A DNA stretch of 64,000 nt from contig WGLV01000025.1 in assembly GCA_016125385.1 (NCBI GenBank), positions 1 through 64,000 on the forward strand. Reading direction: 5' to 3'. Both the position numbers and the translations under genes were made by a program. The stretch is from a bacterium (GTDB lineage: Bacteria > Hinthialibacterota > Hinthialibacteria > Hinthialibacterales > Hinthialibacteraceae). Positions 1,826 to 63,953 of the stretch are shown here, one piece after another (within the stretch, counting starts at the first letter, position 1; every line of letters starts with the position of its first letter). Below the pieces are notes generated by a model, which did no database searches, was not told where the DNA came from, and saw nothing but the letters and a program-made list of their open reading frames with translations.

Positions 1826-3274
1826 ATGACCGGTTTTTCGATGAAGATTCTGCTGATTCAACCGCCCGAGTTCAACATGATCACGACCAACGTGCCCAGC
1901 GTGGTCGATGAGGAGACCGGCGCGTATCCGCCGCTCGGGCTGTTATACGTCGCGGCGTTTATCGAGAGCCAGACCGGCCATCAGGTCGAGATTCTCGACG
2001 CCATCCTCGACAAACTCGATTACGACGGCCTGGAGGCGGAGATCCGCCGCCGCAAACCCGACGTGGTGGGCGTTCAGGCGATGACCTTCACCGTGATCGA
2101 CGCCACGCTGACGGCGAAGCTGGTCAAAAAGATCGATCCGTCCATTCCGGTCGTCTTCGGCGGGCCGCATGTATACATCTACCCCACCGAGACGCTGCGC
2201 ATCCCCCAGGTCGATTACATCGTGATTGGCGAAGGCGAGGAGACCACCGCCGCGCTGATGGACGCGCTCGCCGAAGGCCGCGACCCCGCGACCGTACCGG
2301 GAATCGGCTACAAGCAGGGCGGCGAAGCGAAACTGACGCCCTCGGTTCCGCTCAATCAGTCGCTTGACGATCTGCCCATGCCCGCGCGTCATCTCACCCC
2401 GGTCGACCGCTATTATTCGGTGCTGGCCCGAGAGACGCCCATCACCACGATGATGACCAGCCGCGGCTGCCCCATGCAGTGCATCTTCTGCGACCGCCCT
2501 CATCTCGGCAAGCAGTTCCGCTATCGCAGCCCTCAAAGCGTGGTCGATGAGATGGAAGCCTGCCAGCGCATGGGCGTCCGCGAGATTTTCATCTATGACG
2601 ATACGTTTACCATCCGCCGCGATCGCGTGATGGAGATCTGCCGCCTGTATCGCGAGCGCGGCCTCACCATCCGATGGGACGCCCGCGCGCACATCAACAC
2701 CATCAACGAAAAAATGCTCGACGCGATGGCCGCGTCGGGGTGTTCGCGTCTGCATTACGGCGTCGAGGCCGGTACGGAAGAGATTACTAAAGTGCTCAAA
2801 AAAGGCATCGACCTGCAACGCACCCGCGACGTGTTTCGTGAAACCAAACGGCGTGGCATGACCACGCTAGGGTACTTCATGATCGGCAACCCCGGCGAAA
2901 CGCGCGAACAGGCCATTGAGACCATCGAGTTCGCGCGGCGGCTCGACGCCGACTTCATCCATCTTTCCGTCGCAACGCCCTTCCCCGCGACGGAGCTTTA
3001 CCGCCTCGCTTTCAAGGTGGGGCTTTATCAGAACGACCACTGGCGCGAGTTCGCCCGCGACCCGCGCCCCGACTTCAAGCCCAAACTCTGGACCGAAGTC
3101 ATGTCGGAAGACGAGCTCATCAACCTGATGCGCTGGGGCTATCAGCGCTTCTACATGCGCGGCGGGTACATCGCGAGGCGCGTGCTGGAACTGCACAACT
3201 GGAACGAGTTCGTCCGCAAGGCCCGCGCTGGAATCCGCCTGCTGGCGTGGGGCGTGCGCGCCAAAGCCGTCTGA
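1826..3274 (+). CDS. B12-binding-domain radical SAM protein
   Basis: This is a cobalamin-binding radical SAM enzyme of the BchE/HpnJ/methyltransferase type. The N-terminal ~150 residues form a Rossmann-like B12-binding domain (KILLIQPPE start, VVFGGPHVYIYP, VIGEGEET). The radical SAM core carries the CxxxCxxC cluster at C215, C219 and C222 (RGCPMQCIFC) and a GVEAGTEE segment typical of this clade. Such enzymes methylate or rearrange lipids, cofactors and natural products; the substrate cannot be told here and no biosynthetic neighbours are visible. Start 1826 has GAAGG five bases upstream; an internal ATG at 1841 (MKILLIQPP) is the alternative. It is divergent from purB. Confidence 0.88.
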   Translation: MTGFSMKILLIQPPEFNMITTNVPSVVDEETGAYPPLGLLYVAAFIESQTGHQVEILDAILDKLDYDGLEAEIRRRKPDVVGVQAMTFTVIDATLTAKLVKKIDPSIPVVFGGPHVYIYPTETLRIPQVDYIVIGEGEETTAALMDALAEGRDPATVPGIGYKQGGEAKLTPSVPLNQSLDDLPMPARHLTPVDRYYSVLARETPITTMMTSRGCPMQCIFCDRPHLGKQFRYRSPQSVVDEMEACQRMGVREIFIYDDTFTIRRDRVMEICRLYRERGLTIRWDARAHINTINEKMLDAMAASGCSRLHYGVEAGTEEITKVLKKGIDLQRTRDVFRETKRRGMTTLGYFMIGNPGETREQAIETIEFARRLDADFIHLSVATPFPATELYRLAFKVGLYQNDHWREFARDPRPDFKPKLWTEVMSEDELINLMRWGYQRFYMRGGYIARRVLELHNWNEFVRKARAGIRLLAWGVRAKAV

Positions 3275-3339
3275 TCCGCCACCCTCTTTCTCTCAACCCA
3301 CCCTGTTTGAATTCAATGAATGCCGTGCTGTGTAAATCG

Positions 3340-3368
3340 ATCCCCTTTATGCGTGACGGGGATTTTTT
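3340..3368 (+). terminator. Probable terminator after the radical SAM gene
   Basis: ATCCCC (3340-3345) pairs with GGGGAT (3358-3363) across a 12-nt loop, and a T-run continues to 3368. The stem is short, so this is only moderately secure. Confidence 0.5.
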
Positions 3369-3536
3369 ATCCATAACATCTGGTAATTAAGCAAGTTGTA
3401 AAAATGACAGGCAAAACCTCATGCAAGACGTGCAGGTTCAGCCCGCGTCAAGAAATTTACGCGAGTTTTTTTTTGAGGATAAAACAGTTTAAATATTCTC
3501 TGGCGTGAATTTTTTAGCAGAAAGGAAAATTGGGAA

Positions 3537-4421
3537 ATGAGATTCGGATTCGTAAATTCAATGAAAAGAAGCCCGTTCGTCATCGGCTGTCTGCTCGCGG
3601 CGGCGCTGTTCGCCGCTCCGGACGTAAACGCGCAGATCAATGAAAATCTGGACGAGGCCGTTCCGTATTTCGCGGGAATTTTCAAACATGAAGCCGCGAA
3701 TATCGGCACGGCATGGGAGCAAAAAGACGCGGAGAATTTCGCTGCGGGGTTGCTGGTTACGTTGGATGAATACAAGGCCGCGCTCGGTGATGAAAACTTT
3801 CGGGCTCTGTCTTACTATCTTCCCGCGTATATCAAAAAAATCGCTCGCCGGATCGTCATCATCGGAAAGCAACCCGATCCCATGTACCTCGATGGCTATT
3901 TGGAGGATTTCAGGGGGCGCGTTGAAACGCTGGCCAAGCGCGGCGGACCGATCTTTCCTGATGAAGGGTCTCGAAATGTGATTAAAGCGCAGATCACGGA
4001 GCTCGTGGATTCGGTATTTGAGCAATTGAAGTCGGAAGAGATCGTCACGTCCGATGAAGAAAACGAATTGAAAGAAACGATCGTCTTGTATTTGTACAAA
4101 AAGGCGGACGACCCTTTGCTTTCTGAATTCAAACGAGTCGCGGCTCCTTCGGAAATGGAACGCTTTAAAGATGAGATCAATGCCAATGCGGGAAAAATAA
4201 AACTGGATCAAAACGCCCGAGTAAAAAACCCCGCGAGTGGGAAACGGGAGAAAACTCGGAAAATACTCTCTCTTGTTTCATCCTATGTAATGAAGAATTG
4301 GTATGTGGAACCGGTTCTGAGGCCCTCTGAGGAGGCCATTCAAAAATTCGATATGGCGATTCAGAAGCGGAAGGATGAAATCATGCGTGAGCATGAGGAA
4401 CGCGCCAAATCCAATCAGTGA
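3537..4421 (+). CDS. Secreted protein of unknown function
   Basis: I do not recognise a family. The 294-aa product opens with a Sec-type signal peptide (basic start, hydrophobic VIGCLLAAALFAA, cleavage near DVNAQ). The rest is mostly charged helix, with the tail rich in Lys and Glu (EEAIQKFDMAIQKRKDEIMREHEERAK), so a helical-bundle periplasmic protein is plausible. AAAGGA lies about 10 nt before the ATG; MKRSPFVIG at 3561 is an alternative start. It is the first of five exported proteins read in the same direction, with only 32 nt before the next gene. The DNA is AT-richer than the radical SAM gene to its left. Confidence 0.7.
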   Translation: MRFGFVNSMKRSPFVIGCLLAAALFAAPDVNAQINENLDEAVPYFAGIFKHEAANIGTAWEQKDAENFAAGLLVTLDEYKAALGDENFRALSYYLPAYIKKIARRIVIIGKQPDPMYLDGYLEDFRGRVETLAKRGGPIFPDEGSRNVIKAQITELVDSVFEQLKSEEIVTSDEENELKETIVLYLYKKADDPLLSEFKRVAAPSEMERFKDEINANAGKIKLDQNARVKNPASGKREKTRKILSLVSSYVMKNWYVEPVLRPSEEAIQKFDMAIQKRKDEIMREHEERAKSNQ

Positions 4422-4453
4422 ATAGAATAAACGATAAAAACAGGGAGATTGAC

Positions 4454-5302
4454 ATGATGAATTACATTCAGCATATCGTTGTATTTCTCGCGGCCGTTGC
4501 GGTCTCATTACTTAGCCTGAATGCGCAAGCCCAATCCTGCTATACCACGTATGGAGCAGTGGCGCATCAGCCATCCGATCCATCCGGCGGCGATTTGTTT
4601 GACGATGGATGGCAAATTGATTTTTCTCTGGGCTCTTCTGGAGGACATATCGAGGATACTTTGGACGTCGATACATTAAACGAGGAAACGGATAATTGGA
4701 TTATCGTCGACTTGGATTGCAATATAGTAGAGACTGCCTTGGCAAATTCGAATGGGACCTGTGATTCCAGCGTCCGGAAAGTGTGTGTGCAAGGCGGCGC
4801 CTGTATATACGTAGATACCGTAATTGACGGCGAGACATTATCTTACACAATTGATGATTATTCCGCTGAAGCGTATGTTGATAATTCGCCGGTGGGGTCT
4901 ATTTCAGAAACAAGTTCAAATACGAACATATCAGGGCTACAGTCAGGTGTTCTTACTTTGGATCATAAAAAGGTCGATGGGGTGTTTTATTATTGGCAAT
5001 GGAGTTACACAAATCCTTGGGTATGTACATTAGGTTCAGCCTGTGTTGAGGATCATCCGGTCGATCAATGGTATGCTGATGATAACGGATCGCATGCACC
5101 TATAGATGGGATTGACGGTGCGGGTACGGCAGTACACATGGATGTTGGCAGCGTTTTCAATCAAGCATCGGTGACCGCTCAATCTTCCTGGAATCCTCAT
5201 ATCTATGTAGCAAATAGGGGATATGAACAGGCATTTGCGCATCAAGTGATCCGTGTTCGAGCGTCTGTTTCGGATGTTTCATCTGGTGGAACTTGTCCAT
5301 AA
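4454..5302 (+). CDS. Secreted cysteine-containing protein, unknown
   Basis: No family is recognised. The 282-aa product has a clear signal peptide (MMNYIQHIVVFLAAVAVSLL, cleaved near NAQAQS). The mature part is rich in Ser, Thr, Asp, Gly and aromatics and has scattered Cys (SCYTTY, LDCN, GTCDSS, KVCVQGGACIY, VCTLGSACVED, GGTCP). This suggests a disulfide-stabilised extracellular beta-protein. GGGAG at 4443-4447 fixes the start at 4454 rather than the in-frame GTG at 4418 that overlaps the preceding stop. Base composition is AT-rich and unlike the flanking housekeeping genes, which may mean transfer. Confidence 0.7.
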   Translation: MMNYIQHIVVFLAAVAVSLLSLNAQAQSCYTTYGAVAHQPSDPSGGDLFDDGWQIDFSLGSSGGHIEDTLDVDTLNEETDNWIIVDLDCNIVETALANSNGTCDSSVRKVCVQGGACIYVDTVIDGETLSYTIDDYSAEAYVDNSPVGSISETSSNTNISGLQSGVLTLDHKKVDGVFYYWQWSYTNPWVCTLGSACVEDHPVDQWYADDNGSHAPIDGIDGAGTAVHMDVGSVFNQASVTAQSSWNPHIYVANRGYEQAFAHQVIRVRASVSDVSSGGTCP

Positions 5303-5404
5303 ATTACAACTTTTTACATTATTTTATGAATTCCTTTCTCTGTTGTGATAAATTGTAGCATGCGAAAGCAGGGAGCCACAAAGAAAGATCATAGGAGTAA
5401 CATC

Positions 5405-6529
5405 ATGTCTCGCGCTTTGTTTCTGATCGCGCTGCTCATGGGGATGATGGGAACGCTGAAGTCTGGCTGGACGGAGTTGTTAACGCCGATTCATCTTGGA
5501 ATATTCCAGGAAGGGGGGCAGGTTGGCAGCCCCGGGTATTTTAAAGCAATGGAGGTGGATTCAAATGGGAATGTTTATCTTGCCACGATGCACGAAATTG
5601 TCCAATATAATGAAGAAGAGGGCGTTTTTCGCAGAATTGCCGGGAATGGTATTCTTCCCTATGATGTTGAAGACGGTCCCGCGATAGATCTATCGGTTTC
5701 ACCTGAAGATTTGACGCTTTCTCCACAGGGCGATGTGTATTTTTTAAACGGAGAATGGTATATCACCGCTATTTCCAAAGATGGAATCGCTTCAAAGGTC
5801 TCTCTGTATCTCCCTGGTTCGTCCGATCCGCAATACCTTCTGATTTCGCGTTTTTTCGCTTCTCCCCAAACAAATCGGTTTTTCTTTTATGGATCGGGGA
5901 AATGGTATGGAGAAACCGGAGATAAAGCCGATGTTTTATACATCATGCAGGCGGATCAGAATGGCCTAGTCACCAAATACGTGGGAGGAGGAGATCAATC
6001 GATCGATCGTACGCCTCGCAATCGTCTTGATGTAAGTGTGGATGGGGCCGATCAGGTGTATTCAATGCCGGACAATACGCTGTTTTTCGCTTGGCATGGA
6101 CGAATTTTAATACAGAGCCGATTGTACGACCATTTGTATATGGCGGAAGTAACGCCGAAAGATGAAGTCAGTTTGTTTTTCGATATTGGCGGTGATAACA
6201 TTAAAATGATTAAGTATGGCGCCTTTTTGTCCAAAGAGATGTTTTGCGTTGGAAGGCGCGCGCGGCATGAGGGTTATGCTCCGGATCGATTTTTCGCGGA
6301 GGTAATCACGCCCGGTTCGACGGAGTCGCGTCCCGTCGCCGTATTCCCTGAAAATCCTGCCTATCGATGGCCCGTGGCGGATCAAGCGTACTTCGCTTAT
6401 TGGAAAGAGCGGGACGTGCTATACATCATGCTGCAATACCAGCGTGAAGAAAAACTCGAGCTCTGGAAAATCCCCGACGTGCTGGCTCGCCTGCAATCCG
6501 GCGCGCAAGATTGGGCGCTGTATGAGTAA
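5405..6529 (+). CDS. Secreted propeller-like protein, tandem copy 1
   Basis: The 374-aa exported protein starts with a signal peptide (MSRALFLIALLMGMMGTL). NHL/SMP-30-like motifs follow (AMEVDSNGNVYLAT, EIVQYNEEEGVFRRIAGNG, LSPQGDVYFLNGEWYITAI), so a beta-propeller is likely. The fold is inferred from motif rhythm only. AGGAG (5393-5397) precedes the ATG by 7 nt. The stop overlaps the start of a second copy (TATGAGTAA). The two copies share long stretches, including an almost identical C-terminal ~75 residues, but differ strongly in the segment around residues 215-280. Ligand and role are unknown. Confidence 0.8.
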   Translation: MSRALFLIALLMGMMGTLKSGWTELLTPIHLGIFQEGGQVGSPGYFKAMEVDSNGNVYLATMHEIVQYNEEEGVFRRIAGNGILPYDVEDGPAIDLSVSPEDLTLSPQGDVYFLNGEWYITAISKDGIASKVSLYLPGSSDPQYLLISRFFASPQTNRFFFYGSGKWYGETGDKADVLYIMQADQNGLVTKYVGGGDQSIDRTPRNRLDVSVDGADQVYSMPDNTLFFAWHGRILIQSRLYDHLYMAEVTPKDEVSLFFDIGGDNIKMIKYGAFLSKEMFCVGRRARHEGYAPDRFFAEVITPGSTESRPVAVFPENPAYRWPVADQAYFAYWKERDVLYIMLQYQREEKLELWKIPDVLARLQSGAQDWALYE

Positions 6530-7646
6530 CATCATGTCTCGTGCGTTGTTTCTGATCGCGCTGCTCATGGGGATGGCGGGGACGCTGGAAAACGGCTGGG
6601 CGGAGTTATTAACACCGATTCAAATTGCATTATTTAAAGAAGGAGAACAGGCGGGTTTCCCGGGATATTTCAAAGCGATGGAGGTGGATTCAAACGGCAA
6701 TATTTATCTTGCCACGATGGATGAAATTGTCCAATATAATGAAGAAGAGGGCGTTTTTCGCAGAATTGCCGGGAATGGTATTCTTCCTTACGATGTGGAC
6801 GAAGGCCCCGCGATTGATCTTACGATATATCCCGAAGATTTGGCGCTTTCTCCGCGGGACGATGTGTATTTTTTAAACGGTGAATGGGAAATTACCGCCA
6901 TCTCCGAGGAGGGAATCGCTTCAAAGGTTCCTCTGTATCTCCCTGGTTCTTCCGATCCAGTTTACTCCTTGGAAGCGCCTTCTTTTGCCTCTCCCCTAAC
7001 CAATCGGTTTTTCTTTTATGGATCGGGGAAATGGTATGGAGAAACCGGCGATAGAGCCGATGTTCTATACATCATGCAGGCGGATCAGGACGGCCTGGTT
7101 ACAAAGTATGTTGGCGGGGGAGATCAACCGATCGATTACACGCCTCGCGATCGTATGGATGTAAGAATTAATAGAATCGATCAGGTGTATTTTTTGCCGG
7201 ATGGTACGCTGTTTTTCCCTTGGCTTGCGAGAGAGGAAATATATCGTCACTGGTACATGGCTGAAGTGACGCCGCAAGGTGGCGTGAGTCTGATTTTTGA
7301 TATTAATGATGATAAAATCGGCTTGTTTAACTATGGAGCCTTCGTATCCAGGGAACTTTTTCTCTTTGGAAGGCGCGCGCGGCATGAGGGTTATGCTCCG
7401 GATCGATTTTTCGCGGAGGTAATCACGCCTGGTTCGACGGAGTCGCGTCCCGTCGCCGTATTCCCTGAAAATCCCTCCTATCGATGGCCCGTGGCGGATC
7501 AAGCGTATTTCGCCTATTGGAAAGAACGGGACGTGCTATACATCATGATGCAATACCAGCGTGAAGAAAAACTCGAGCTCTGGAAAATCCCCGACGTGCT
7601 GGCTCGCCTTCAATCCGGGGCTCAAGATTGGGCGCTGTATGAATAA
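6522..7646 (+). CDS. Secreted propeller-like protein, tandem copy 2
   Basis: This is a paralogue of the gene just upstream, with the same signal peptide and the same NHL-like motifs (DSNGNIYLATMDEIVQYNEEEGVFRRIAGNG). It is four residues shorter when counted from the matching Met. The ATG at 6522 overlaps the TAA of copy 1, so translation is probably coupled; the Met matching copy 1 is at 6534. The AGGAG that precedes copy 1 has been replaced here by the end of copy 1, leaving only GAG. The last ~200 bases are nearly identical to copy 1 even at silent sites, while the middle differs. This points to recent duplication or gene conversion. Confidence 0.8.
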   Translation: MSNIMSRALFLIALLMGMAGTLENGWAELLTPIQIALFKEGEQAGFPGYFKAMEVDSNGNIYLATMDEIVQYNEEEGVFRRIAGNGILPYDVDEGPAIDLTIYPEDLALSPRDDVYFLNGEWEITAISEEGIASKVPLYLPGSSDPVYSLEAPSFASPLTNRFFFYGSGKWYGETGDRADVLYIMQADQDGLVTKYVGGGDQPIDYTPRDRMDVRINRIDQVYFLPDGTLFFPWLAREEIYRHWYMAEVTPQGGVSLIFDINDDKIGLFNYGAFVSRELFLFGRRARHEGYAPDRFFAEVITPGSTESRPVAVFPENPSYRWPVADQAYFAYWKERDVLYIMMQYQREEKLELWKIPDVLARLQSGAQDWALYE

Positions 7647-8301
7647 ACCACTGACCGTCGCATTTGCTGTATCGATCGCCGTCCTGCTGGCCGGACTTCC
7701 CGCGCGGGGCGGAGAAACGGGCGCCGGGGACGGCGCGAGGCGACTGCCTTTGATGGATGGATCGCCCGAGTCGCTATCCGTCTATCACGGCGAGCCTGTT
7801 TCGATCACCGAAGCGGTGCGGGACAAGGTGGCCGTGTTGCGTTTCTGGTCGCCCTCGTGTCCTCACGCGCAATCGCTCGATCCCGCGATGGCCGATCTGG
7901 CGAGTTCGTTCAAAGACCGCATCGCCGTCTTCGACGTGGATTCCAACTGGAAATCCAACCCGGAGGATTCAGAGCGAATACGCGAGGAGCGGGGGCTGGG
8001 CTGGCCGATGATTCGCGATCCTCGCAGTCTGCTGGCGAGGGCGCTGAAAGCGCGCACCAATGGAGAGTTTTTCGTCTTCCGAAACGATGGAACGTTGGCG
8101 TATCGCGGCACGAACGACATAGCGCGGTATCGCCCCGCGATGAAGATCGCCGACGTTCATCATTTGGTGGAGAAGCTGCTCGCGGGCGATTCGGTGGAGT
8201 GTGGCGACGCGCCCTGTTTTGGCTGTTATATCAATTACAATCCCATCGTTCACAAAGAGGATTTGGATTTTCTCAAAAAAATAGCCGTATTGGATGAATG
8301 A
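7639..8301 (+). CDS. Exported redoxin/thioredoxin-like protein
   Basis: The 220-aa product has a signal peptide (AFAVSIAVLLAGLPARG) and a thioredoxin-fold core (VAVLRFWSPSCPHAQSLDP, IAVFDVDSNW, FFVFRNDGTLAYRG). The usual CxxC is reduced to a single cysteine, C74, in SPSCPH, as in some AhpC/TSA-type redoxins. A second cluster, VECGDAPCFGCYINYN, lies near the C-terminus and could supply the resolving thiol or bind a ligand. The ATG overlaps the stop of the upstream propeller gene (TATGAATAA), which suggests coupled translation. A role with the disulfide-bearing secreted neighbours is inference. Confidence 0.78.
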   Translation: MNKPLTVAFAVSIAVLLAGLPARGGETGAGDGARRLPLMDGSPESLSVYHGEPVSITEAVRDKVAVLRFWSPSCPHAQSLDPAMADLASSFKDRIAVFDVDSNWKSNPEDSERIREERGLGWPMIRDPRSLLARALKARTNGEFFVFRNDGTLAYRGTNDIARYRPAMKIADVHHLVEKLLAGDSVECGDAPCFGCYINYNPIVHKEDLDFLKKIAVLDE

Positions 8302-8327
8302 GCCTTTATAACCGCTCACCCTTATAC

Positions 8328-8356
8328 AAAAACGGGGCGGCTGATGGCCGCCCCGT
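8328..8356. terminator. Shared terminator between convergent genes
   Basis: A perfect 10-bp stem (8332-8341 with 8347-8356, ACGGGGCGGC and its complement) closes a 5-nt loop. The A-run 8328-8332 gives a T-tract on the minus strand, serving the DUF1080 gene; the plus-strand operon also ends here. Confidence 0.8.
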
Positions 8357-8380
8357 TCTCGTGCGTAGAATGAATCGAGA

Positions 8381-16090: not shown

Positions 16091-16546
16091 ATGGCCAAAC
16101 CGGCATTAACACGCGAAAACTGGCCGCTGTTCAGGCAGCGCTTCGATCGAATCAACGCCGATTCGGTTCCCCAGTGGGGAACGCTGACACCCGCCCGCCT
16201 GATGAAACATCTCCAGGTCGCGATTGAATCGAGCCTGGGCCGGGTAAAAATCAAAGATCAGAGTACGTGGTTTTCACGCAACGTTATCAAGCCGTTGATC
16301 GTGAACGTCTTTACCAACTGGCCCAAGGGCGTCAAAGCGCCCGATATCCTGTTCCCCGATGCGGAAAACGATTTTGACGCCGAGCGCGGCAGGCTCTACG
16401 CGCTGGTGGATGAATATTTCGCCGAAGTCGATCGCGATCCGCTCCGGATCACCCATCACCCCTTCTTCGGGCCGATGACGATGCGGTATGGCCAGCGCCT
16501 GCACGGCCTGCATTTCAACCACCACCTTCGCCAATACGGCGTATAA
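16091..16546 (+). CDS. DUF1569 (DinB-like four-helix) protein
   Basis: The 151-aa product matches the DUF1569 pattern: WGTLTPARLMKHLQVAIESSLG, a central KAPDILFP segment, the ERGRLYALVDEYF helix, and the C-terminal HPFFGPMTMRYGQRLHGLHFNHHLRQYG. The conserved His residues (MKHLQ and HFNHHLRQ) are placed as in metal-binding DinB-type bundles. DUF1569 is uncharacterised; relatives include thiol-dependent enzymes. It is 47 nt downstream of the enolase-superfamily gene and likely co-transcribed. A hairpin with a T-rich tail follows. Confidence 0.85.
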   Translation: MAKPALTRENWPLFRQRFDRINADSVPQWGTLTPARLMKHLQVAIESSLGRVKIKDQSTWFSRNVIKPLIVNVFTNWPKGVKAPDILFPDAENDFDAERGRLYALVDEYFAEVDRDPLRITHHPFFGPMTMRYGQRLHGLHFNHHLRQYGV

Positions 16547-16594
16547 CCACGGTGTAAAACTTCTTTCTCCCCGGCTCTCAAAGCCGCTGACGTT

Positions 16595-16635
16595 CAGCCG
16601 GTTTAAGCGTGAACCGGCTGTTGTGAATCTTTTTG
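16595..16635 (+). terminator. Probable terminator after DUF1569 gene
   Basis: A 9-bp stem plus a G-U pair (16595-16604 with 16611-16620, CAGCCGGTT and complement) closes a 6-nt loop and is followed by a T-rich tract ending around 16634. Confidence 0.6.
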
Positions 16636-16847
16636 GAAAAGAGCATATGCTCTGTTGGGCCGGTTGGAATGACCGCCGGAATCGATGCTGTAACCCAATA
16701 AACGACAATATCGATTTTCTGTTACCGAATCGGATACAAACTGAATCGCCAGACCGAAGAATCCATCTCCCGCTCCGAATGCTAAACAACATGGAGCACA
16801 CGATCTAAGTCTATTTTATTCAAGTGGATGTTGATGAACCTGCCTGT

Positions 16848-16875
16848 AAAGCCGCCTGATGGGCGGTTTTTGTTT
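16848..16875 (+). terminator. Second terminator-like hairpin upstream of kinase gene
   Basis: AAAGCCGCC (16848-16856) pairs with GGCGGTTTT (16862-16870, one G-U) around a TGATG loop, then TTGTTT follows. It cannot belong to the DUF1569 gene unless the first hairpin is read through, so it may end an unseen transcript. Confidence 0.6.
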
Positions 16876-16987
16876 GAAAAACTGTGTTTTCTTGCGGCAT
16901 GATGGCCTGATACTTGCGCTTCCGAATGATAATTGCTGTCCAATTAATTTATTGATTCGCATGGATGTGTTGGATTGGAATGAGATC

Positions 16988-18247
16988 ATGATGAAATCAG
17001 GATGCATTCTGCTGATTTTCGCCGCCGTACATGGAAGCATGACTCTCTCGCCGGGACTGGTTGAAAGCCCGTGGTTGATGACCGCTTGGGCTCACTCGCT
17101 GGATAACGGGGTCATCATCGAATTATGGGATTCGCTGGCGGGCGGGGGGCTCGCTCAAGCCGCTCCGGATGCGTTGATCCAGAAAACCAGCCCGATTGAG
17201 TTGTCATGGAGTCTGACTGAAGTTGTATCGCTGGTCGTTTTGCCGTTGTTCTCACTGGTTGTGTTGATTGCCGTATTGATGACCACCATCGGGATCAGGC
17301 GAGACGCTGTCGCGAGTGGGGATGCGCCATCCTCCAACCGGCACGGCGTTTTACCAGGCGAAAATGAAAAACGGGATGGCGCGGGGGGAGTAACAGAGAT
17401 GGGATCAGAAGATGGAACCGGTGAACTGCAACGCCGAATGACCATGATCATGCGCCAGAATCAGAAACAGGAACTGATGTGCCGCCTGGTGTCGGGTATG
17501 GCGCATAACATCAACAATCTGCTGACCGGCGTGATCGGCAACATCAACCTGGCGGAATTAAAATGTTCGATCGAGACGGAAGAATATCTCAAACGGGCGC
17601 GCCTCTCGGCCGACCGCGCGGCTGAGATCGTCAACGGCCTGCTGACCTTCAGCCGGGAGAGTTCAGTCAAGTTTGAACGGATCAATCTGAACGACCTGGT
17701 GCTCGATACCTACCAGCTGCTGCGCGGCGTTTTCGAAAGCCGTATCAACCTGTGCGTCGAACCATCCCATTCTCCGCTTTTCGTCTACGCCGATCCTCGC
17801 TTGGTACAAACCGTGCTGATGAATGTCTGCGTGAACTCGCGCGACGCCATCCGCGCCGTGATGGACTCAGACGCTCCCGCCGCATTGCGTAAGAATGCTT
17901 CATGGTATGCGCTGATTCGTACCTCGATCGTATCAACCCGCAAATCGCTGGATGAATCCGTCCGGAAATACGCGTTGATCACTGTGAATGACAACGGAGT
18001 GGGAATGACGGACGCGCAAAAAGACCGGGTTTTCGATCCGTTTTTCACCACCAAGGACGACGTGGGCAAGGGCATGGGGCTTGCCGTCGCTTATGGCATC
18101 GTCCTTCAACACGAAGGGTGGATCGACTTCACCAGCCAGTTTGGCGAGGGCAGCACGTTCAATATTTATCTTCCACTGAATGAGAATGATGAAGTGAACT
18201 CGCGAGAATGGAGCCGGGACGAGTCTCCCATGCGGGACTCCGTGTGA
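16988..18247 (+). CDS. Orphan membrane-associated sensor histidine kinase
   Basis: The 419-aa kinase has an N-terminal hydrophobic stretch, a transmembrane segment near residues 80-100 (VVSLVVLPLFSLVVLIAVLMT), a polar linker, then the transmitter. The phospho-accepting His is H173 in SGMAHNINNLLTGVIGN. HATPase boxes follow: VLMNVCVNSRDAI (N), DNGVGM (G1), FDPFFTTK (F), GKGMGLAVAYGIV (G2). This MAHNINN-type H-box is typical of hybrid-style kinases, yet no receiver domain is fused and no response regulator is encoded nearby. The ribosome site is weak; MDVLDW at 16961 is an alternative start. Confidence 0.85.
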   Translation: MMKSGCILLIFAAVHGSMTLSPGLVESPWLMTAWAHSLDNGVIIELWDSLAGGGLAQAAPDALIQKTSPIELSWSLTEVVSLVVLPLFSLVVLIAVLMTTIGIRRDAVASGDAPSSNRHGVLPGENEKRDGAGGVTEMGSEDGTGELQRRMTMIMRQNQKQELMCRLVSGMAHNINNLLTGVIGNINLAELKCSIETEEYLKRARLSADRAAEIVNGLLTFSRESSVKFERINLNDLVLDTYQLLRGVFESRINLCVEPSHSPLFVYADPRLVQTVLMNVCVNSRDAIRAVMDSDAPAALRKNASWYALIRTSIVSTRKSLDESVRKYALITVNDNGVGMTDAQKDRVFDPFFTTKDDVGKGMGLAVAYGIVLQHEGWIDFTSQFGEGSTFNIYLPLNENDEVNSREWSRDESPMRDSV

Positions 18248-62250: not shown

Positions 62251-62417
62251 GAGGTCATCCTCGAAGTGTATTTTGTTTATTTTATTCATGGCATTTGAAG
62301 AGAGATAGGTTTTATCTTTCTGAGTACGGATTGAGTTTGACCGTTGCCCATGAAAATGCGATGATTTTAATGTTTTGTTTGTTCCACTTCGCATGAATTG
62401 GAAGGGTGATATATCCA

Positions 62418-63329
62418 ATGCCGATTCCTGATTTTCAAAGTTTTCTGCTTCCGGTTTTGCATACCTGCGGCGACTCCGCCGTTCACTCGATGGTGCAAAT
62501 CCGCGCGCAGGTCGCTGAGAATTTCAACTTGTCGGATGCTGAAACCGCTGAATTGTTGCCGAGTGGTAAACAACCAATTTTCGTTAATCGAGTCGCGTGG
62601 GCGGTTGTCTATTTAAAAAAAGCAGAGTTGCTGGAATCCCCAGCGCGTGCACAAGTAAAAATTACTCAATTGGGCTTGGATGTTTTGAATCGGAATTTGG
62701 ATCGTATTGACGTCAAATACCTGAAACAATTCGATTCGTTCAAGAATTTCCGGGAAATTAAGTCTCAAACATTGGAAAACTCAAATGAGAATGAATCGGA
62801 TGTGTTGACTCCTCAAGAAACTCTTGAGTCCAGCTATCAGGATTTAAAACAGCAGCTCGCCCAGGAACTGCTCGACAAACTCAAAGAAGTCGAGCCATCT
62901 CGATTTGAGCGTATAGTGATTGAACTGCTTGTTCAGATGGGATATGGAGGTTCATTGAAAGATGCGGGTAAGGCGTTAGGCAAAGCAGGAGACGGTGGTG
63001 TGGATGGAATTATCAATGAGGACCGGCTTGGGTTGGATGTAATTTATATTCAGGCGAAAAAGTGGGATTCCACTGTGGTTGGCCGTCCCGAAATTCAAAA
63101 ATTCGCTGGCGCTTTGCAGATGAATCGAGCTCGAAAAGGAGTTTTTATAACAACATCCACTTTTTCGAAGGAAGCGCTTGATAGTGTCAATCAGTTGTAT
63201 GACAGCAAGATGATATTGATTGATGGTGAAAAACTGGTGGAATACATGATTGAGTTTAATCTCGGCGTATCGACTGAAACCGTGTATGAAATCAAGCGGA
63301 TTGACAGCGACTATTTTTCAGAAGACTGA
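62418..63329 (+). CDS. mrr: Mrr-type restriction endonuclease
   Basis: The 303-aa protein matches Mrr. It has an N-terminal winged-helix DNA-binding domain (HSMVQIRAQVAENFNLSDAE, WAVVYLKKAELLE, ITQLGLDVL) and a C-terminal PD-(D/E)XK domain with FERIVIELLVQMGYGG, then the GDGGVDGII strand and the QAKKW lysine (D near 195, K near 214). The family cleaves DNA carrying methylated bases. GAAGGG lies 11 nt before ATG 62418. DNA is AT-richer than the flanking genes, consistent with acquisition. A toxin-antitoxin pair follows. Confidence 0.92.
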   Translation: MPIPDFQSFLLPVLHTCGDSAVHSMVQIRAQVAENFNLSDAETAELLPSGKQPIFVNRVAWAVVYLKKAELLESPARAQVKITQLGLDVLNRNLDRIDVKYLKQFDSFKNFREIKSQTLENSNENESDVLTPQETLESSYQDLKQQLAQELLDKLKEVEPSRFERIVIELLVQMGYGGSLKDAGKALGKAGDGGVDGIINEDRLGLDVIYIQAKKWDSTVVGRPEIQKFAGALQMNRARKGVFITTSTFSKEALDSVNQLYDSKMILIDGEKLVEYMIEFNLGVSTETVYEIKRIDSDYFSED

Positions 63330-63466
63330 CCGTTCCCTTTACCTCCCGCTTTTCTCGCCGTCCGTGATGAAATCCGCGGAGGATTGAATTGAAGTGGATA
63401 CGCAATCGGTCTAACGTATAGAGGATGTGATACAATATCCATCAACAAACGATGAGGATGGTGAGC

Positions 63467-63700
63467 ATGAACGGTAAAAGCGCGGCGGTTCAACGATTGG
63501 AGTCTCTGGTTGACAGTCTTCCTCCCAAAACCATAGAACAGATCGTGGATTACGCGGAATATCTGAAATCGAGAGAAGAGTGGGAAGCCACTCAGGAAAT
63601 CCTCAACGACCCTGCGATGCTGCGCGATGTTGAAGAAGGGCGAGCGCAGTCAGCAAGGCGTGAAGGAACATCATGGCGAGAGGTTCGGCGGCGTGTATGA
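63467..63700 (+). CDS. Antitoxin-like small protein (DUF2281-type)
   Basis: The 77-aa protein has a VQRLESLVDSLPPKTIEQIVDYAEYLKSREEWEAT segment, typical of DUF2281/RelB-like antitoxins with a helical start and an acidic, flexible tail that usually wraps the toxin. ATG 63467 is taken as the start because GGTGAG lies directly upstream and other in-frame ATGs (63452, 63458) are less well placed. Its end overlaps the toxin start by 8 nt. Confidence 0.8.
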   Translation: MNGKSAAVQRLESLVDSLPPKTIEQIVDYAEYLKSREEWEATQEILNDPAMLRDVEEGRAQSARREGTSWREVRRRV

Positions 63701-63953
63701 AGTTAGGCTCACGCCCCAGGCGGAGAAAGATTATTTGAAACTGGACTCTTCCGTTCGCAAACGAGTTGATATTGTGTTTGAGCGTTTTGAAGAAGGAGAA
63801 TTTACTCATCCCAATATCCGCGCGCTACACGGTCGGCTTTCCGGCAGTCTTCGTTACCGTCTTGGGGCTAGAAGGATCATATTTCATATCCAGCACGCTG
63901 AACGGATCGTTTGGATCGAGACGATCACCCAACGTGGAGGAGCGTATTCTTAG
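63693..63953 (+). CDS. RelE/ParE-family toxin
   Basis: The 86-aa protein has the RelE-type layout: VRLTPQAEKDYLKLDSSVRKRVDIVFERFEEGEF helices, then IRALHGRLSGSLRYRLGARRIIFHIQHAERIVWIETITQRG strands, with the conserved basic YRLGARRIIF and the IETITQRG end. RelE toxins cut mRNA on the ribosome. The start is probably GTG at 63693 (GAGAGG upstream), overlapping the antitoxin stop; an in-frame ATG at 63627 lies deep in the antitoxin gene. Nothing is seen in the 47 bases after it. Confidence 0.85.
   Translation: MYEVRLTPQAEKDYLKLDSSVRKRVDIVFERFEEGEFTHPNIRALHGRLSGSLRYRLGARRIIFHIQHAERIVWIETITQRGGAYS

Follow-up and report, generated by a model that had tools for sequence, protein, structure and literature searches.

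An in-register tandem gene duplication with clean edges at a short repeat and patchy divergence between its copies

The gene pair and its genomic surroundings

The window (the whole stretch of DNA that was analyzed, 64,000 nucleotides) contains two adjacent homologous genes on the same strand, preceded by two orphan genes and followed by a gene for an AhpC-TSA/thioredoxin-like protein, hereafter redoxin (Table 1). In the window's own genome the gene is present twice, as this pair only. A global alignment of the two repeat units revealed 945 identical columns out of 1140, and the ten leader bases are the same in both units. The edges of the homology are sharp and coincide with a hexamer, as seen in ungapped comparisons. 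At the left hexamer edge, 17 of 60 bases are identical upstream (outside) and 55 of 60 downstream (inside), whereas at the right edge, 56 of 60 are identical upstream (inside, TAA included) and 17 of 60 downstream (outside); beyond both unit edges, identity is at the chance level. Copies 1 and 2 therefore form a tandem duplication that is in register and very cleanly delimited. A previous sequence-only reading of this DNA had described such a repeat and proposed a base-by-base alignment of its units; their homology is borne out, and the periods of 1129 and 1117 bases that it gave are both correct.

Table 1. Coordinates of the features at the locus and the basis of their assignment
Feature	Position	Strand	Basis
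Two upstream orphan genes	3537-4421; 4454-5302	+	Unmatched in the 13 further genomes of the phylum that were compared; GC3 0.575 and 0.401
Likely ribosome-binding site (AGGAG) of copy 1	5393-5397	+	Sequence
Repeat unit 1, including 10-base leader	5395-6529	+	82.9% identity to unit 2; identity drops to 17/60 upstream of 5395
Copy 1 gene; NHL-propeller-like product of 374 aa with a signal-peptide-like hydrophobic segment at the N-terminus	5405-6529	+	ORF; profile match
Near-identical tract, probable gene conversion tract	6242-6490 (copy 1), matching 7359-7607 (copy 2)	+	dS 0.09 vs 0.66 outside; 4/400 permutations
ATGAGTAA: copy 1 stop over in-frame upstream start of copy 2; holds junction hexamer 6524-6529	6522-6529	+	Sequence
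Repeat unit 2	6524-7646	+	Alignment
Copy 2 gene	6534-7646	+	ORF; 370 aa when counted from the homologous start and 374 aa when counted from ATG 6522
ATGAATAA: copy 2 stop over redoxin start	7639-7646	+	Sequence
AhpC-TSA/thioredoxin-like gene (redoxin)	7639-8301	+	Pfam PF00578 E 2e-9, PF00085 E 9.2e-6

No model of Pfam or NCBIfam was matched at its cut-off by copy 1 or copy 2. Inspection by eye revealed an N-terminal hydrophobic segment resembling a signal peptide, and a profile of both copies matched, over positions 48-133, the repeats of teneurin-like proteins, which we take to be NHL repeats (whole-chain E 2.3e-6, with the best single stretch being weak). A possible likeness to NHL-repeat beta-propeller proteins lies in the alignment of these positions to teneurin-like repeats and to short segments of various other proteins; the pair differs from them in that neither copy reaches a family cut-off, and the likeness is confined to this one weak stretch. 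When the same profile was searched against the phylum, 5 of 14 genomes gave matches at E 0.01, and a search of 386 genomes (own included) gave matches in 3 at E 1e-5; in both cases the matches were short stretches, and full length was reached only in the window's own genome. A structure model computed from the two copies had a mean pLDDT of 35 and was unusable. Our best guess is that the protein is probably a secreted, NHL-propeller-like orphan.

The search for relatives returned neither a full-length homologue nor a single-copy relative among 6 genomes of the family, 13 further ones of the phylum or the set of 386 genomes (own included). Likewise, neither was retrieved from the collections of genome contigs, plasmids and viral contigs; some of the sets searched may lack records very close to the window's own genome. 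The genus is sampled by the window's own genome alone, and G001, the nearest relative compared and a member of another genus, has zero copies at the site. Flanking ORFs were read at 7 of 10 redoxin loci, and at these no copy of the pair's gene was seen ahead of the redoxin; at L008, a locus from another phylum, a different propeller-like ORF, as judged by eye, lies before the redoxin.

The pair lies in a block of low GC content. The window has a GC content of 58%, whereas positions 3251-7500 are mostly at 44-50%, with about 53% near 6251-6750. The redoxin gene is of ordinary composition (58.5% GC), and its homologues outside this genome are 22-31% identical. By eye, a single cysteine occupies the active-site position of the redoxin-like protein (SPSCPHA), and three more lie near the C-terminus (ECGDAPCFGC). 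In G001, 188 bases separate a radical-SAM gene from a 3-keto-disaccharide hydrolase gene; in the window, the same two genes are about 5.1 kb apart, and between them lie both orphan genes, the duplicated pair and the redoxin gene. Other genes follow the radical-SAM gene in G002, G004 and G005, and the contig of G003 ends within it. The intergenic stretch of G001 did not align above shuffled sequences with the left edge (score 28, shuffled maximum 36) or the right edge (score 18, shuffled mean 18.2) of the extra block. The low-GC block with the pair has so far been seen only in this genome, and the orphans and the pair may have been gained here rather than lost in G001, as their composition favors.

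Promoter-like sites were as frequent as expected by chance, and terminator-like sites were less frequent than that. A GC-rich inverted repeat at 8326-8362, between the convergent redoxin and hydrolase genes, is probably a shared terminator. Two other stretches of low GC content were observed. One is short (16501-17250, below 50%); the other (62406-63953) contains a gene for an Mrr-type restriction endonuclease (PF04471 E 3.7e-33) and, after it, a ParE-like toxin-type ORF whose match (PF05016 E 2.8e-4) narrowly misses the cut-off, and is possibly a defence or mobile patch.

Patchy divergence between the two copies

Over the whole gene, the comparison of copy 1 with copy 2 gave a dS of 0.485 and a dN of 0.123 (dN/dS 0.25), and both copies look protein-coding and under purifying selection. 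Divergence is distributed unevenly along the gene, a feature absent from the sequence-only reading. In blocks of 20 codons, dS ranged from near 0 to more than 1, and exact stretches common to both copies reach up to 65 bases. A scan for segments of low divergence singled out a 3' tract of 75 codons that has 5 synonymous differences, as compared to 66 in 281 codons overall; dS is 0.09 within 6242-6490 and 0.66 outside. An equal or better segment was found in only 4 of 400 permutations that kept codon degeneracy. Two further permutation tests agreed (96/20000 and 321/20000), whereas a test of the longest unbroken run was weaker (850/20000).

A tract of unusually low synonymous divergence, the mark of gene conversion, is thus present, and the mosaic suggests that the copies exchanged sequence after an older duplication; the signal is moderate and comes from one sequence pair. 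The duplication itself is not recent, dS outside the 3' tract being 0.66. Taking as a scale the neighboring radical-SAM gene, which has a dS of 0.97 with respect to G001, the duplication may be younger than the split from that relative, a rough comparison given that base composition differs. PMC6053082 deals with concerted evolution in prokaryotes. As in gene conversion and concerted evolution of prokaryotic paralogues, synonymous sites are much more similar in some parts of the two copies than elsewhere, but homogenization here is limited to a tract within the gene, and no orthologues were found for comparison.

The junction hexamer and the origin of the join

GAGTAA is found at 5395-5400 and 6524-6529 and GAATAA at 7641-7646, exactly as had been read previously. 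The junction copy is identical to the left flank in 6 of 6 bases and to the right flank in 5 of 6, so that a short identity is common to the junction and both outer flanks. The motif GA(A/G)TAA is common per se, with 22 sites on the plus strand of the 64-kb window; the informative point is that the hexamer coincides with both edges of homology, not its occurrence alone. To place this match in context, 200000 random joins between points 900-1400 bases apart were drawn within the window. At least six exact common bases were observed in 0.26% of these joins, and six common bases with at most one mismatch, which is the present-day state, in 2.4%. The junction microhomology is therefore suggestive, not compelling.

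Copy 1 carries its AGGAG seven bases ahead of ATG 5405. At the equivalent position, copy 2 has an ATG (6522) that is in frame with ATG 6534, the latter being the homologue of the copy 1 start. The genome gave a single 16S rRNA match (G000:C54:12862-13719), which covers model positions 9-873, and the 16S rRNA gene seems incomplete or interrupted in the assembly. According to the sequence-only reading, the stop of each gene overlaps the next start. This is certain for the redoxin, whose ATG at 7639 overlaps the copy 2 stop (7644-7646). For copy 2, it holds only if translation begins at ATG 6522, which the copy 1 stop (6527-6529) then overlaps; ATG 6534 lies four bases past that stop, without overlap, and a start there would still have a GAG seven bases before it. 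Judged from the sequence, the stop/start overlap associated with translational coupling is hence present at the redoxin and, for copy 2, only with ATG 6522, from which a coupled start is possible.

We consider it reasonably probable that the pair arose by in-register duplication through an exchange at short homology, followed by divergence and 3' gene conversion. The ancestor would have been a single gene preceded by AGGAGTAACATCATG and ending in ATGA(A/G)TAA, which lay across the start of the redoxin gene. An exchange or slip at short homology, between the two GA(A/G)TAA sites, would have added a copy, and stop and next start would have been kept in order because the site served one gene as leader and the other as stop codon. 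The copies would then have diverged and exchanged the 3' tract by gene conversion. The unequal exchange at the hexamer was already proposed in the sequence-only reading; the tandem copies, the position of both edges on the hexamer and the rarity of such a match at random joins support it in part, and the site of exchange itself is what we infer. It is the simplest reading and stays an inferred one because no single-copy relative that would show the ancestral boundary turned up in the sets searched, the outer flanks now match in only 5 of 6 bases, the event is old, and selection would favor an in-register stop and start under any mechanism.

This last point is the core of the main alternative, which we regard as unlikely but worth serious thought: the copies arose by another route (a join that was blunt or replication-based, or an array that used to be longer), and only the register with a working stop and start was retained by selection, so that the hexamer match is mostly a by-product of the needed stop codon. 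The hexamer does include a stop codon that must stay, and both the 22 plus-strand sites and the 2.4% of random joins with a one-mismatch match fit this explanation; the need for a stop accounts for the TAA, however, not for the GA(A/G) that precedes it. The patchy divergence admits another explanation, that the copies represent alleles of one gene which had diverged in different strains and were joined by unequal recombination between strains. Mosaic divergence, with dS from near 0 to more than 1 among 20-codon blocks, would be expected in this case as well, but nothing requires such a history, and we consider it improbable. An assembly artefact, in which two strain variants of one gene were written head to tail, is the least credible and very improbable. 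The genome is an incomplete draft of 77 contigs, and exact stretches of up to 65 bases could confuse an assembler over which block fits which copy; on the other hand, the sides of the junction have only six bases in common, probably too few for an overlap-invented join, neither reading frame is broken, and the register is kept exactly across the junction.

Relation to known duplications

The exchange at the hexamer that we favor can be compared with tandem duplications described in bacteria. PMC11721125 reports amplifications whose joins show either microhomology or no homology, and PMC3411829 reports spontaneous duplications with longer junction microhomology, for which a cut-off of 11 bp or more was deduced for true duplications. 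These cases and the present pair have in common the head-to-tail arrangement and the few bases shared at the join. They differ in that the published duplications are recent and were under observation, whereas this pair is old and diverged and has its junction on a stop/start overlap; furthermore, the six-base match is shorter than the 11-bp cut-off. Among the titles and abstracts surveyed, no case of a duplication tied to a stop/start overlap or to short-repeat junctions was found, which is not proof of absence.

In type, the duplication is an ordinary one, slightly unusual in combining a clean join with patchy similarity, and it leaves the general knowledge of duplication unchanged. A far-reaching and quite improbable extension would be that one short sequence combines three roles, those of a ribosome-binding leader, a stop codon and a recombination seam, such that exchange there gains or loses a copy with the operon intact; the locus would then be a self-registering expansion point for a family of secreted proteins, with conversion shuffling variants between copies. 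If the history of short-homology exchange is right, the pair would be a neat example of how a short repeat at gene ends lets a gene within an operon duplicate without disturbing its neighbors.
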